Assembly (NCBI GenBank): GCA_016182655.1
Contig: JACPGB010000009.1
Span: 1-50,114 of the forward strand
Length of the DNA: 50,114 nucleotides
Direction: 5' to 3'
Source of the DNA: Deltaproteobacteria bacterium
Lineage (GTDB): Bacteria; Desulfobacterota; GWC2-55-46
Positions 46,283 through 50,114 of the stretch are shown piece after piece; the stretch's first letter is position 1; each line of letters starts with the position of its first letter. The notes beneath the pieces were generated by a model. That model saw only the letters and a program-made list of their open reading frames with translations, did no database searches and had not been told where the DNA came from. A program made the position numbers and the translations under genes.

Positions 46283-46401
46283 CGCGACTTTTTTCTTCAA
46301 AAAGCCTTAATTTCCCTAATCTTTTTAGAAAGGCCTGGCGAAGGGCCAAATCCTCTGGAAACTGTACGACTTGACTCATGGCGGGTCTCGATGGGCAAAG
46401 G

Positions 46402-46443
46402 TGCCCCTGTACCGAAAGTGCGGTATCGGCGGCATTTTTTTTT
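46402..46443 (+). terminator. Intrinsic-terminator-like hairpin just before the diguanylate cyclase gene
   Basis: TGCC, then CTG, then TACCG on the left (46402-46414) pair with CGGTA, CGG and GGCA on the right (46421-46434), with one bulge and one mismatch, followed by nine T (46435-46443). It ends 18 nt before ATG 46462, too close for a promoter in between, so it may be an attenuator. It could also terminate the sec operon. Confidence 0.6.
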
Positions 46444-46461
46444 GTAAACTCGCAGGTTTGG

Positions 46462-48051
46462 ATGATAGCACCAGCCATGATGGAAAAGAGCATCGAATTT
46501 ATCGGGAGCCCGGGCGCTTCCCTGGACCTTTCGCTTTGGCGCGACTTCCAGGAAGGGCTCTCGTCCCTGCTCGGGCTCTCTTTTTCGTTGTATGACGGCA
46601 AGGGCACCCCCCTTTCCACGCCTTCCCGCGAAAACCAGGTCTGCTCCGCGGTTAAATGCACGCAAAGGGGCTCATCGCTTTGCAGGGAGACCTATGTGAA
46701 CGCCTCAAGGCAGGTGCTTGAGAAAAAGAAACCCTACATATACAAGTGCCACATGAACCAGTACATTTTTGCGGTCCCGGCCCGACTCGACAGGGACAGC
46801 CCCGTCGTCGTCGTCGGGGGCAGGGCCTATATACAGGGCAAGGAGCTAAGGGACTTCTATGAGGCGATAGCCCCTTACGGGTTCAGCGACCAATCGCTTG
46901 AGTCGCTGAAGGCCGCCCTCGTTACCATACCGGCGAAGTCCGTCTTCACGGTCCCGACCATCATCGAGAACCTCGCGGGGTCGTTTTTAAAGTGCCTCGC
47001 CGCTTCCAACGGGTCTCACCAGGCGGAGAACGAAAGGCCGGTCCTCGCCGCCAACGGCTTTCAGGCCCTCGAAGAGGTATACAAGTCGTTGGCCCCGGTC
47101 CTCGACAGGGAAGAGCTCTATGAGACGATACTTTCCAAGTCATCGGAGCTTGTAAGGGCCGAGAGGGGCTCGCTCATGATACTCGACAACAAGAGCAGGG
47201 TCCTCTCCGTCAAGGCCTCGAAGGGCATAGACAGGAGGATAGTCGACAACCTGAGGGTCAGGCTCGGCGAGGGGATCTCGGGGGCGATAGCGGCAAAGGG
47301 CCTGCCGGTGGTGGTGAGGAACATAGAGTCCGAAGTCCCGTCATGGAAGAACAGGCCGGTCTACAAGACCAAGTCGTTCATCTCCATCCCTTTGAAGATC
47401 GACACCCGCGTCATCGGCGTCATAAACGTCTCGGACAAGATATCCGGGGAGGTATTCTCCGATGATGACCTCCAGCTCCTCTTGTCGTTCGCCAACTACG
47501 CTTCCATTGCCCTTGAGCGCGGCGCGTACTACACGATGAGCGAAGAGCTCAAGATGCTCTCCATGACCGACCCGCTCACCGCTCTCTTCAACAGAAGGTA
47601 CTTCAGGGAAAGGCTCTTCGAGGAGGTCGAGAGGGTAAAGAGGCACAGCGAGTGCTTCTCGACGTTCATGATAGACATAGACAATTTCAAATCCTATAAC
47701 GACACCTACGGGCACATCATGGGGGACGAGGTCCTTAAAGGGGTCGCCCGCGCCATAAGGGACGCCGTCCGCTCAATGGACGTTGTGGCGAGATACGGCG
47801 GCGAGGAGTTCGCCGTGATACTCCCGCACACGGACAAGAAGGACTCCTTCGTCATAGCCGAGAGGATAAGGAAGGGTGTCGAGGAGCTAAGGCTGCCCGG
47901 GACGTCCGGCAAGACCCCGACCATAAGCCTCGGAGTAGCCGAGTTCCCGACTGACGCGAGCCACATTGACGAGCTCATACACAGGGCGGACTCGGCCATG
48001 TACAGCGCAAAGAGGATGGGCAAGAACAGGGTGGTCGTCTATGAAAGATAG
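46462..48051 (+). CDS. PocR-GAF-GGDEF diguanylate cyclase
   Basis: The 529-residue cytoplasmic protein has three domains. Residues about 25-180 form a PocR-type sensory domain with its cysteines (C61, C66, C74, C96; CSAVKCTQRG, CRETY, YKCHMNQYIFAVP). Residues about 205-355 form a GAF domain (RAERGSLMILD, GEGISGAIA, SIPLKIDTRVIGVINV). Residues about 365-529 form a GGDEF domain that joins two GTP into cyclic di-GMP: DPLTALFNRRYF, the active site GGEEF (446-450) and an inhibitory I-site RSMD (437-440) five residues before it. It is therefore probably active and product-inhibited. A frame extends upstream to 46378, but that part reads through the terminator hairpin. It overlaps the next gene by 11 nt. 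Confidence 0.88.
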   Translation: MIAPAMMEKSIEFIGSPGASLDLSLWRDFQEGLSSLLGLSFSLYDGKGTPLSTPSRENQVCSAVKCTQRGSSLCRETYVNASRQVLEKKKPYIYKCHMNQYIFAVPARLDRDSPVVVVGGRAYIQGKELRDFYEAIAPYGFSDQSLESLKAALVTIPAKSVFTVPTIIENLAGSFLKCLAASNGSHQAENERPVLAANGFQALEEVYKSLAPVLDREELYETILSKSSELVRAERGSLMILDNKSRVLSVKASKGIDRRIVDNLRVRLGEGISGAIAAKGLPVVVRNIESEVPSWKNRPVYKTKSFISIPLKIDTRVIGVINVSDKISGEVFSDDDLQLLLSFANYASIALERGAYYTMSEELKMLSMTDPLTALFNRRYFRERLFEEVERVKRHSECFSTFMIDIDNFKSYNDTYGHIMGDEVLKGVARAIRDAVRSMDVVARYGGEEFAVILPHTDKKDSFVIAERIRKGVEELRLPGTSGKTPTISLGVAEFPTDASHIDELIHRADSAMYSAKRMGKNRVVVYER

Positions 48052-50114
48052 GACGCTCTTCTCCATATGCCCTGACGCCGAGTTCTTCGGAAGGACGCGG
48101 GAGATAGGGGACGTCCTCGCGAGGGCCCAGGGACTCCGGCGCATCCCCAACATATTCCTCGCAGGCAAGCGCTGGACGGGCAAGACCGAGGTCCTGAGGC
48201 GCATCCACAGGGAGCTCTTCTGGTCGCAGGCGCGCGTCGTGCCGGTCTATTACCAGTTCAAGGGCCCGCTTGAGGCCGAGGCCTTCGCGGAGGATTATCT
48301 TAAGGAATTCATCAAGCAATACCTCGCGTTCAGGAAAAGGGAGCCGGACCTCGTAAGGAACGAGACCTCGCTGGAGAGGCTCGAGAGGATCCTTTTCGAC
48401 GAGGACGCTTTTGGTCTCCTGGATTTCACGATCATACACAGGGAGGCAAAGAGGAGCGCCGACAAGACCGCGTGCTTGAGGAACGCGCTCGGCGCGATAG
48501 AGCTCATGACGAGGCGCACGGGGACCCCGGTCTACCTCATCCTCGACGACATCGGAGAATCCCTGCGCTCTTCCGGCGGAGCCGTACCGTCGATCGAGAG
48601 GGAGCTCGCCGAATCCCTCAACTCCGGGTCGTTCCCTTTTATCGCCGCGAGCTCCACGGGTGCCTTCCTCGAAGGCGGGCTCCTCGGCTCGGTTGAGCGG
48701 ATGGAACTCGACGGGCTCGACGCCGATACGTCTGTAGCGCTGATGGCCGAGCTCTGCCGGGCGCACAATATCGCTTTTGACACCGAAATACTCTCGCTTG
48801 CCGCGATGAAGCTCGGCGGCAACCCCATGTACATGAAGTCGATAGTCTGGGCCGCGCTCAAGGGGGGAAGGGACCTTAAGGACCTTAAGTCCTTTGTCGA
48901 GCTCTACTCCGACGAGGTCTTCGAGGGCAACATCGCCTTCGCCCTGAAATCCTCCCTGAAGCTCAAGACCCCGTCGGAACTCCGGATGCTCTACGCGCTT
49001 ATAAATGCTCGCGCCGACAACGGCGCGATCCCCGGGGAGGACCTCCGCGAGAGGTTCAGGCTCTCGGAAGACGAGTTCTCGAAGGCCGCCACGTCGCTCG
49101 CAGGAGAAGGTCTCGCCGAGTTCGCGTTGGGGTCGGTCAAATGGGCTGGCGACTCGACGACAGCCGACTTCGTCTCCTACATGTATGAGACGAGGATAAA
49201 GGGGAGGGGCGCGGACGAATTCAGGACCGCTTTCGCGAGGGAGGCGCTCAAAGAGGGCTTCATTGCCCGGGGTGCGAGGGTGCGGAGCCGCCTTAAAGAG
49301 GACGCCGCCACGGCGCTCAGGTCTTTCAACGGCCAGAAGCTCATGAAGGTACTATTCAGGAACCAGGCGTTCTCGGTGATGTCCAGGAACGGCGGCTGGA
49401 AGCCGGGCGAAAGAAAGGACCCCGAGGAGCTCGCCCTTCCGGAGACGATAGGCTCGTTCGAGAGCACCCGCTGGGAAAAGGGCGAGACGGGCCCGCCCAT
49501 AATAATCGCGAACGGGTTCGCCAACGGCAGATACGACGCGGGGAACGAAGTCGTCTGGATGACGGCCGTAAAGGACTCTCCGTCTCCGGTGAACATCGGA
49601 GACGTCGAGAGCTTCCTCCGGAGGTCCCAGCTCATCAAGGAGAACTTCAGGACGACGAGGATAGTCCGCTGGTTCGTCGGCAGGGACGGCTTCACCGCCG
49701 AGGCGCAAAAGAGGCTCGAAGGGGAAGGGGTCCATTCGAGCGACGCGGTCCAGCTTAACCTCATAAGGGAATCCCTCGAGGATGCCTCTTCCTCCGGAAG
49801 GCTCAAACGCGAAGACAAGATACTCCCGATGAAGGAGTTCGAGGTGATACTGCCCTCCTCGACAAAGGCCGAGCTCGGGGCGGCCAAGGCGGTCGAGGAG
49901 ATAGGCACCGAGATGGGGTTCGGCGACAACGCCATAGGCCAGATAAAGGCCGCGCTCGTCGAGGCCTGCATCAACGCCTTCGAGCACAGCAAGGTAAAGG
50001 CCGGCAAGGTATTCTTGAGGTTCGTCGCCGGGGGCGATAGATTGACCATCCACGTCCAGAACGGGGGCGTCGACTTCGACTCTTCCGCCACGGCGGCCTC
50101 CGGCGCGAGCGCCG
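48041..50114 (+). CDS. Multidomain ATPase with RsbW-like C-terminal kinase domain (partial)
   Basis: The frame is open from ATG 48041 to the window edge (691 codons seen). Residues about 14-260 form a P-loop ATPase of AAA_16/STAND style: FFGRTREI at the start, Walker A GKRWTGKT (42-49) and Walker B VYLILDD (164-170). About 305-375 looks like a winged helix (LRMLYALINARADNGAIPGEDLRERF). About 500-590 resembles a restriction-nuclease-like fold (EVVWMTAVKDSP ... IVRWFVGRDGFTAEAQKRL) without an obvious full catalytic set. From about 600 an RsbW/SpoIIAB-type ATPase begins (ALVEACINAFEHS, LTIHVQNGGVDFD). The RsbW part suggests anti-sigma or partner-switch signalling. The start overlaps the diguanylate cyclase. 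Domain names other than the P-loop and RsbW-like parts are inference; the end is not seen. Confidence 0.75.
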   Translation, partial: MKDRTLFSICPDAEFFGRTREIGDVLARAQGLRRIPNIFLAGKRWTGKTEVLRRIHRELFWSQARVVPVYYQFKGPLEAEAFAEDYLKEFIKQYLAFRKREPDLVRNETSLERLERILFDEDAFGLLDFTIIHREAKRSADKTACLRNALGAIELMTRRTGTPVYLILDDIGESLRSSGGAVPSIERELAESLNSGSFPFIAASSTGAFLEGGLLGSVERMELDGLDADTSVALMAELCRAHNIAFDTEILSLAAMKLGGNPMYMKSIVWAALKGGRDLKDLKSFVELYSDEVFEGNIAFALKSSLKLKTPSELRMLYALINARADNGAIPGEDLRERFRLSEDEFSKAATSLAGEGLAEFALGSVKWAGDSTTADFVSYMYETRIKGRGADEFRTAFAREALKEGFIARGARVRSRLKEDAATALRSFNGQKLMKVLFRNQAFSVMSRNGGWKPGERKDPEELALPETIGSFESTRWEKGETGPPIIIANGFANGRYDAGNEVVWMTAVKDSPSPVNIGDVESFLRRSQLIKENFRTTRIVRWFVGRDGFTAEAQKRLEGEGVHSSDAVQLNLIRESLEDASSSGRLKREDKILPMKEFEVILPSSTKAELGAAKAVEEIGTEMGFGDNAIGQIKAALVEACINAFEHSKVKAGKVFLRFVAGGDRLTIHVQNGGVDFDSSATAASGASA

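Follow-up and report, generated by a model that had tools for sequence, protein, structure and literature searches.

A STAND-like NTPase fused to an RsbW-type HATPase in a conserved gene cassette: a putative partner switch for cyclic di-GMP turnover

The window analysed here, a stretch of 50,114 nucleotides, is one complete contig, C24, from a metagenome-assembled genome (MAG) of 2.9 Mb. The closest relatives of this genome that bear a name are groundwater and GWB2_55_19 'Deltaproteobacteria' MAGs. At its right end, a gene for a diguanylate cyclase is followed by a gene for a multidomain fusion protein (Table 1), and the start of the latter overlaps the stop of the GGDEF gene by 11 bp. Homologues of the cyclase have about 520-532 amino acids, and its true start may lie somewhat inside the reading frame listed. 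The fusion frame opens with an ATG, stays open for 691 codons through the last base, and is interrupted by the contig end. Its full length is about 725-770 amino acids, as judged from a strain variant on a second contig (C1) and from unbroken relatives.

Table 1. Features at the right end of the window
Feature	Position	Strand	Basis or remark
PocR sensory domain - GAF - GGDEF diguanylate cyclase	46378..48051	+	intact GGEEF, RxxD I-site
Fusion protein	48041..50114	+	691 aa of about 740, truncated by contig end
STAND-like P-loop NTPase (predicted), residues ~12-288	48074..48904	+	Walker A, Walker B, conserved GNP motif
Walker A GKRWTGKT, residues 42-49	48164-48187	+	
Walker B LILDD, residues 166-170	48536-48550	+	
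Winged helix, residues ~315-375 (limits approximate)	48983..49165	+	weak repeated profile matches
Degenerate PD-(D/E)XK-like domain related to DUF234 (probable), residues ~463-587	49427..49801	+	hhalign
RsbW/SpoIIAB-type HATPase, from residue ~598	49832..50114	+	Pfam, profile; domain end on contig C1
N-box Glu	49961-49963	+	
Asn674 (AAC), replaces adenine-binding G1-box Asp	50060..50062	+	

The start of C1 (G000:C1:1-878) copies the last 878 bp of the window with 95% identity, so that the break at 50114 reflects strain heterogeneity of the MAG. Two contigs of one MAG that end in the same gene, with copies 95% identical, are a sign of strain mixture; being strain variants, C24 and C1 were kept separate and not joined. 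Beyond the overlap, C1 carries the normal end of the fusion and, after it, genes for a STAS protein and a GAF-HD-GYP protein, followed by recJ. Further downstream on C1 (L003:5301-9575), a deoxyhypusine-synthase-like gene, a pyruvoyl-type decarboxylase-like frame, and two adjacent ATP-grasp (D-Ala-D-Ala-ligase-like) frames were recognized by eye. The fusion itself is not a product of assembly, since unbroken copies occur in single-contig genomes. It is present in 33 of the 63 genomes of the class, in most of them at full length, and a divergent full-length version is found in family f39, a second clade of the same phylum; the concern that two genes had been joined is thereby settled.

The frame encodes one protein, in which a STAND-like P-loop NTPase is followed by a winged helix, then by a degenerate PD-(D/E)XK-like domain, and last by an RsbW/SpoIIAB-type HATPase; this confirms the overall architecture given in the preliminary description. 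The Walker A, LILDD, and GNP motifs of the NTPase are near-invariant among 24 homologues. K48, T49, D169, and D170 (numbered as in locus L034) are at least 90% conserved, giving the Walker A and hhhhDD Walker B signature of STAND proteins, and the STAND GxP motif is represented by GGNPMYM, in which G254 and P256 are nearly invariant and after which the winged helix follows. Pfam AAA_16 matches at residues 14-172 (E 2.9e-6; 28.3 bits, under the cut-off of 32.6) and ATPase_2 at 15-266 (E 2e-4), and the two families match 22 and 16 of the 24 homologues, respectively. By its motifs, the N-terminal part is thus classified as a STAND-like NTPase. Two similar tandem NTPase proteins of ~570 amino acids, related to the N-terminus of the fusion and lacking an HATPase, are encoded in genome G265 (L087:4792-8259). 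Matches to the winged helix, which had been called probable, are weak but recurrent: TFIIE_alpha in 7 of the 24 homologues, MarR/IclR/Rrf2 types in others, and an Lrs14-type structure at family profile positions 313-362 (E 0.046). AlphaFold gave unusable models for the full fusion protein (pLDDT 35) and for the middle domain alone (pLDDT 43), the input sequences being near-identical.

For the middle domain, neither Pfam at E up to 10 nor a PDB profile search gave anything credible; the best PDB match, a de novo TIM barrel, was discarded. Comparison by hhalign with ATPase_2-wH-DUF234 proteins from the same phylum produced one colinear alignment of 427 columns (96.8%, E 2.7e-10) that begins at the P-loop and extends through the whole of DUF234, and the NTPase part alone aligned with these proteins at 1e-7. 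The middle domain alone reached a probability of 29-37% against DUF234, with unrelated decoys at 1.3% or lower. Mrr_cat was rejected as a template, at 2.7% versus 37% for DUF234, the Mrr_cat set comprising only 6 sequences. Because of the colinear alignment and the score above the decoys, we regard the middle domain, with moderate confidence, as a probable relative of the PD-(D/E)XK fold. The nuclease-like appearance noted previously therefore probably reflects a DUF234-related fold, but the catalytic residues are absent: the D..(E)xK set is conserved neither in the class nor in f39, the position of the catalytic Asp is hydrophobic in the class, the acidic residue of ExK is replaced by A/G/S/F/V and others, and f39 lacks the ExK Lys.

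The assignment of the C-terminal domain as RsbW/SpoIIAB-like is well borne out. Pfam HATPase_c_2 matches at residues 614-684 with E 1.3e-6 in the window and 8e-17 in the C1 copy, where the domain runs to its end. In the PDB, the family profile finds RsbW (6m36) with E 6e-19 and structures of SpoIIAB with E 6e-10. The part on C1 scores 51 bits against the NCBIfam RsbW equivalog cut-off of 145. As in RsbW and SpoIIAB, the catalytic Glu and the metal-binding Asn of the N box are invariant in all 55 distinct sequences; the G2 box, too, is retained. In RsbW, the counterpart of the N-box Glu is Glu49, which makes contact with the Ser of RsbV that is phosphorylated (PMC7340262). The G1 box departs from this family, a point that the preliminary description did not raise: within the class, each of the 32 distinct sequences of the fusion has Asn in place of the Asp of RsbW and SpoIIAB. 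The Asp is kept in 23 outgroup and paralogous sequences, among them standalone RsbW proteins of three genomes of the class (G035, G038, and G042). The standalone canonical RsbW of G035 is encoded ~5 kb from a SpoIIE phosphatase (G035:C11:20642-26771; L092, L120), and this genome also has the fusion, so that it offers a useful internal control.

The tree is compatible with a single Asp-to-Asn change (support 70/53), which is the best reading of the sequences, not a proven one. Since the HATPase is the most conserved domain (mean identity of 66% versus 47% for the NTPase; dN/dS 0.12) and keeps its catalytic Glu and metal-binding Asn, the sequences argue that the change has been maintained and is not decay. 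The Asn may weaken or alter nucleotide binding. The literature on its effect, as summarized in one source, is divided: VanS kinases with Asn at this position bind ATP very weakly, whereas in the ThkA kinase structure the Asn continues to bond with adenine, and GTP is the reported substrate of one Bacillus sporulation kinase with the Asn (PMC10017428).

An unbroken locus in MGPQ01000010.1 (L034) has the order secD/secF, cyclase, a 733-aa fusion, STAS, HD-GYP, and recJ. The cassette accordingly consists of four genes, for a PocR-GAF-GGDEF cyclase, the fusion, a STAS protein, and a GAF-HD-GYP phosphodiesterase, and coding overlaps link the first three. Wherever the flanks were read, its chromosomal site is constant, with secDF on one side and recJ on the other. 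In the loci that extend over them, and as far as the search pattern applies, the GGEEF, RxxD, and HD-GYP motifs are intact. The STAS protein matches PF01740 over the cut-off and SpoIIAA-like NCBIfam models below it; the Ser of its NSIG motif is invariant save one Thr. A search to the right for STAS, sigma-factor, or PP2C genes had been suggested: the STAS gene directly follows the fusion, whereas the flanks read (L034, L089) have no sigma-factor gene next to it, nor does a PP2C gene adjoin the fusion in the stretches read. The genome, 97.6% complete, has no match to PF07228 (SpoIIE) or PF13672 (PP2C_2), and positive-control genomes did match. Because of this, the usual reset step of a partner switch is missing here, while the STAS partner is present.

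The STAS orthologue is found in 31 of the 32 genomes with the fusion and in none of the 27 without it, although these genomes are not independent of one another and MAG gaps may account for some absences. The sole exception, G053, has the fusion with no STAS gene seen, and its locus is cut off where the contig stops. Within each of the genera g2, g12, and g32, some members have both genes and others have neither. The HD-GYP orthologue is not strictly dependent on the other two, since it survives alone in G013 and G020. The cyclase lies directly upstream of the fusion in every locus of the class with enough flank, and also in G050 and G053, and this adjacency is limited to the class; other clades lack it. 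The order fusion, STAS, HD-GYP occurs in the class and recurs in f39, G108, and G300, where the fusion is much more divergent; in f39 the STAS gene is adjacent and the HD-GYP gene often so. In G108 (L083:1101-6148), a gene for a TPR protein precedes that of an NTPase-HATPase fusion lacking the middle domain, and STAS and HD-GYP genes come next, possibly a simpler form of the cassette. G120 (L085:1068-3707) has a standalone RsbW-like gene, a STAS gene, and a GAF histidine kinase: the same switch parts, unfused.

The genetic module is thus well supported, with domain content, gene order, fusion-STAS co-inheritance, and intact active-site motifs of the cyclase and phosphodiesterase as direct observations; its biochemistry we infer. 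The reading that we prefer, at a probability of roughly one half, is an NTPase-gated partner switch that would act through the STAS protein to set c-di-GMP turnover and not a sigma output. The STAND-like part would bind a ligand, and its nucleotide-dependent assembly would free or activate the C-terminal HATPase, which would capture the STAS protein and/or phosphorylate it at the conserved NSIG Ser. Free or modified STAS protein might then bind the phosphodiesterase next door, the cyclase, or both, thereby setting the c-di-GMP level. Gene order, co-inheritance, the STAS Ser, and the intact enzyme motifs suggest this route. The strong conservation of the HATPase and its invariant N-box residues also speak for it. 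Against it stand the missing phosphatase match, the G1-box Asn with its possible effect on nucleotide binding, the HD-GYP orthologues that survive alone in G013 and G020, and a cyclase neighbour restricted to the class. The phosphodiesterase is the first candidate target, because it is a more constant neighbour than the cyclase across clades. There is precedent in SiaABCD, HsbRAD, and BgrVR, where STAS or STAS-like proteins control cyclases (PMC8457831, PMC6482189). The partner-switch output proposed in the preliminary description was right in outline, given the STAS neighbour and its 31/32 co-occurrence, and c-di-GMP, for which translational coupling to the cyclase had been the hint, is more strongly implicated than was then supposed because a GAF-HD-GYP phosphodiesterase follows too.

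The other output then considered, a classical anti-sigma switch, has become less likely because no sigma or PP2C gene is adjacent in the flanks read and the genome lacks PF07228 and PF13672 matches. The HATPase would here hold a sigma factor encoded elsewhere until the STAS protein released it, with the c-di-GMP enzymes merely co-transcribed or acting in parallel. RsbW/SpoIIAB is indeed the closest solved relative of the HATPase, a STAS gene adjoins the fusion, and HsbR/HsbA in P. aeruginosa governs both sigma factors and a cyclase (PMC6482189); however, a phosphodiesterase is adjacent in every clade, and we judge an anti-sigma switch unlikely. STAND NTPases are often part of conflict and defence systems, and the fusion could be such a protein with nuclease-like and HATPase effectors. 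PADLOC and plasmid searches gave no match, the chromosomal site is fixed where flanks were read, and the catalytic nuclease residues are lost, all of which leaves a defence role very improbable.

Two further alternatives turn on the G1-box Asn and the missing phosphatase. The HATPase of the class may be a pseudokinase whose sole role is to hold the STAS protein; the STAND cycle would then be the switch, and therefore neither kinase nor phosphatase would be needed. The Asn in all 32 class sequences, set against the Asp of the outgroups and of the standalone RsbW in the same genomes, favours this idea, as do the lack of PP2C matches and the weak ATP binding of VanS. The invariant catalytic Glu and metal-binding Asn, the G2 box, the retained Ser/Thr of the STAS protein, and the adenine contact in ThkA speak against it, and overall we consider it doubtful. 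Coupled loss of the G1 Asp and of the phosphatase was rejected: f39 has no SpoIIE/PP2C although it keeps the Asp, so the two losses do not track and are not linked. GTP is the substrate of the diguanylate cyclase. A switch without phosphatase, in which the nucleotide state of the STAND NTPase replaced the PP2C reset and the RsbW-type domain had changed its nucleotide, possibly to GTP, would couple nucleotide supply to c-di-GMP; this we hold to be quite unlikely.

The known outputs of partner switches are sigma factors and, in a few cases, single cyclases. In this conserved cassette, the predicted partner switch is set between a cyclase and a phosphodiesterase and its kinase has a STAND sensor, which would tie the world of NLR-like NTPases to c-di-GMP signalling and suggests a new way to set the c-di-GMP level. 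What is unusual is that the nucleotide pocket is altered and that the switch lacks its phosphatase. The Asp-to-Asn change across the lineage and the absence of that enzyme raise the testable question of the reset route and the nucleotide used. No description of a STAND-RsbW fusion, or of DUF234 with this fold, was found in open-licence literature, which is weak evidence of novelty.

Among known proteins, the ATPase_2-wH-DUF234 group of archaeal-type ATPases has the same succession of an NTPase, a winged helix, and a PD-(D/E)XK-like domain and aligns end to end, but its members stop after the nuclease-like domain, keep the D..ExK residues, and have no HATPase. RsbW-RsbV and SpoIIAB-SpoIIAA of Bacillus provide the closest HATPase structures, with the catalytic Glu, the metal Asn, and a STAS partner having Ser at the switch position; in contrast, these kinases are free-standing, have the G1 Asp, work with PP2C phosphatases, and control sigma factors. 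VanS and the GTP-dependent Bacillus sporulation kinase share the Asn in the G1 box of a Bergerat ATPase, but are histidine kinases and not STAS kinases (PMC10017428). In SiaABCD of P. aeruginosa, a STAS-like protein binds and activates a cyclase, and phosphorylation by a dedicated kinase prevents binding; there, however, the kinase SiaB and the phosphatase SiaA are separate, the STAS-like protein is DUF1987 and not STAS, and no NTPase is fused (PMC8457831). HsbR-HsbA-HsbD of the same organism has an RsbW-type kinase domain within a multidomain protein and a STAS protein that binds a cyclase, although what is joined to the kinase is a receiver plus a PP2C phosphatase instead of an NTPase, and sigma factors are regulated too (PMC6482189). 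By analogy, the best reading is that the cassette works like SiaABCD and HsbRAD, though with a different input module.
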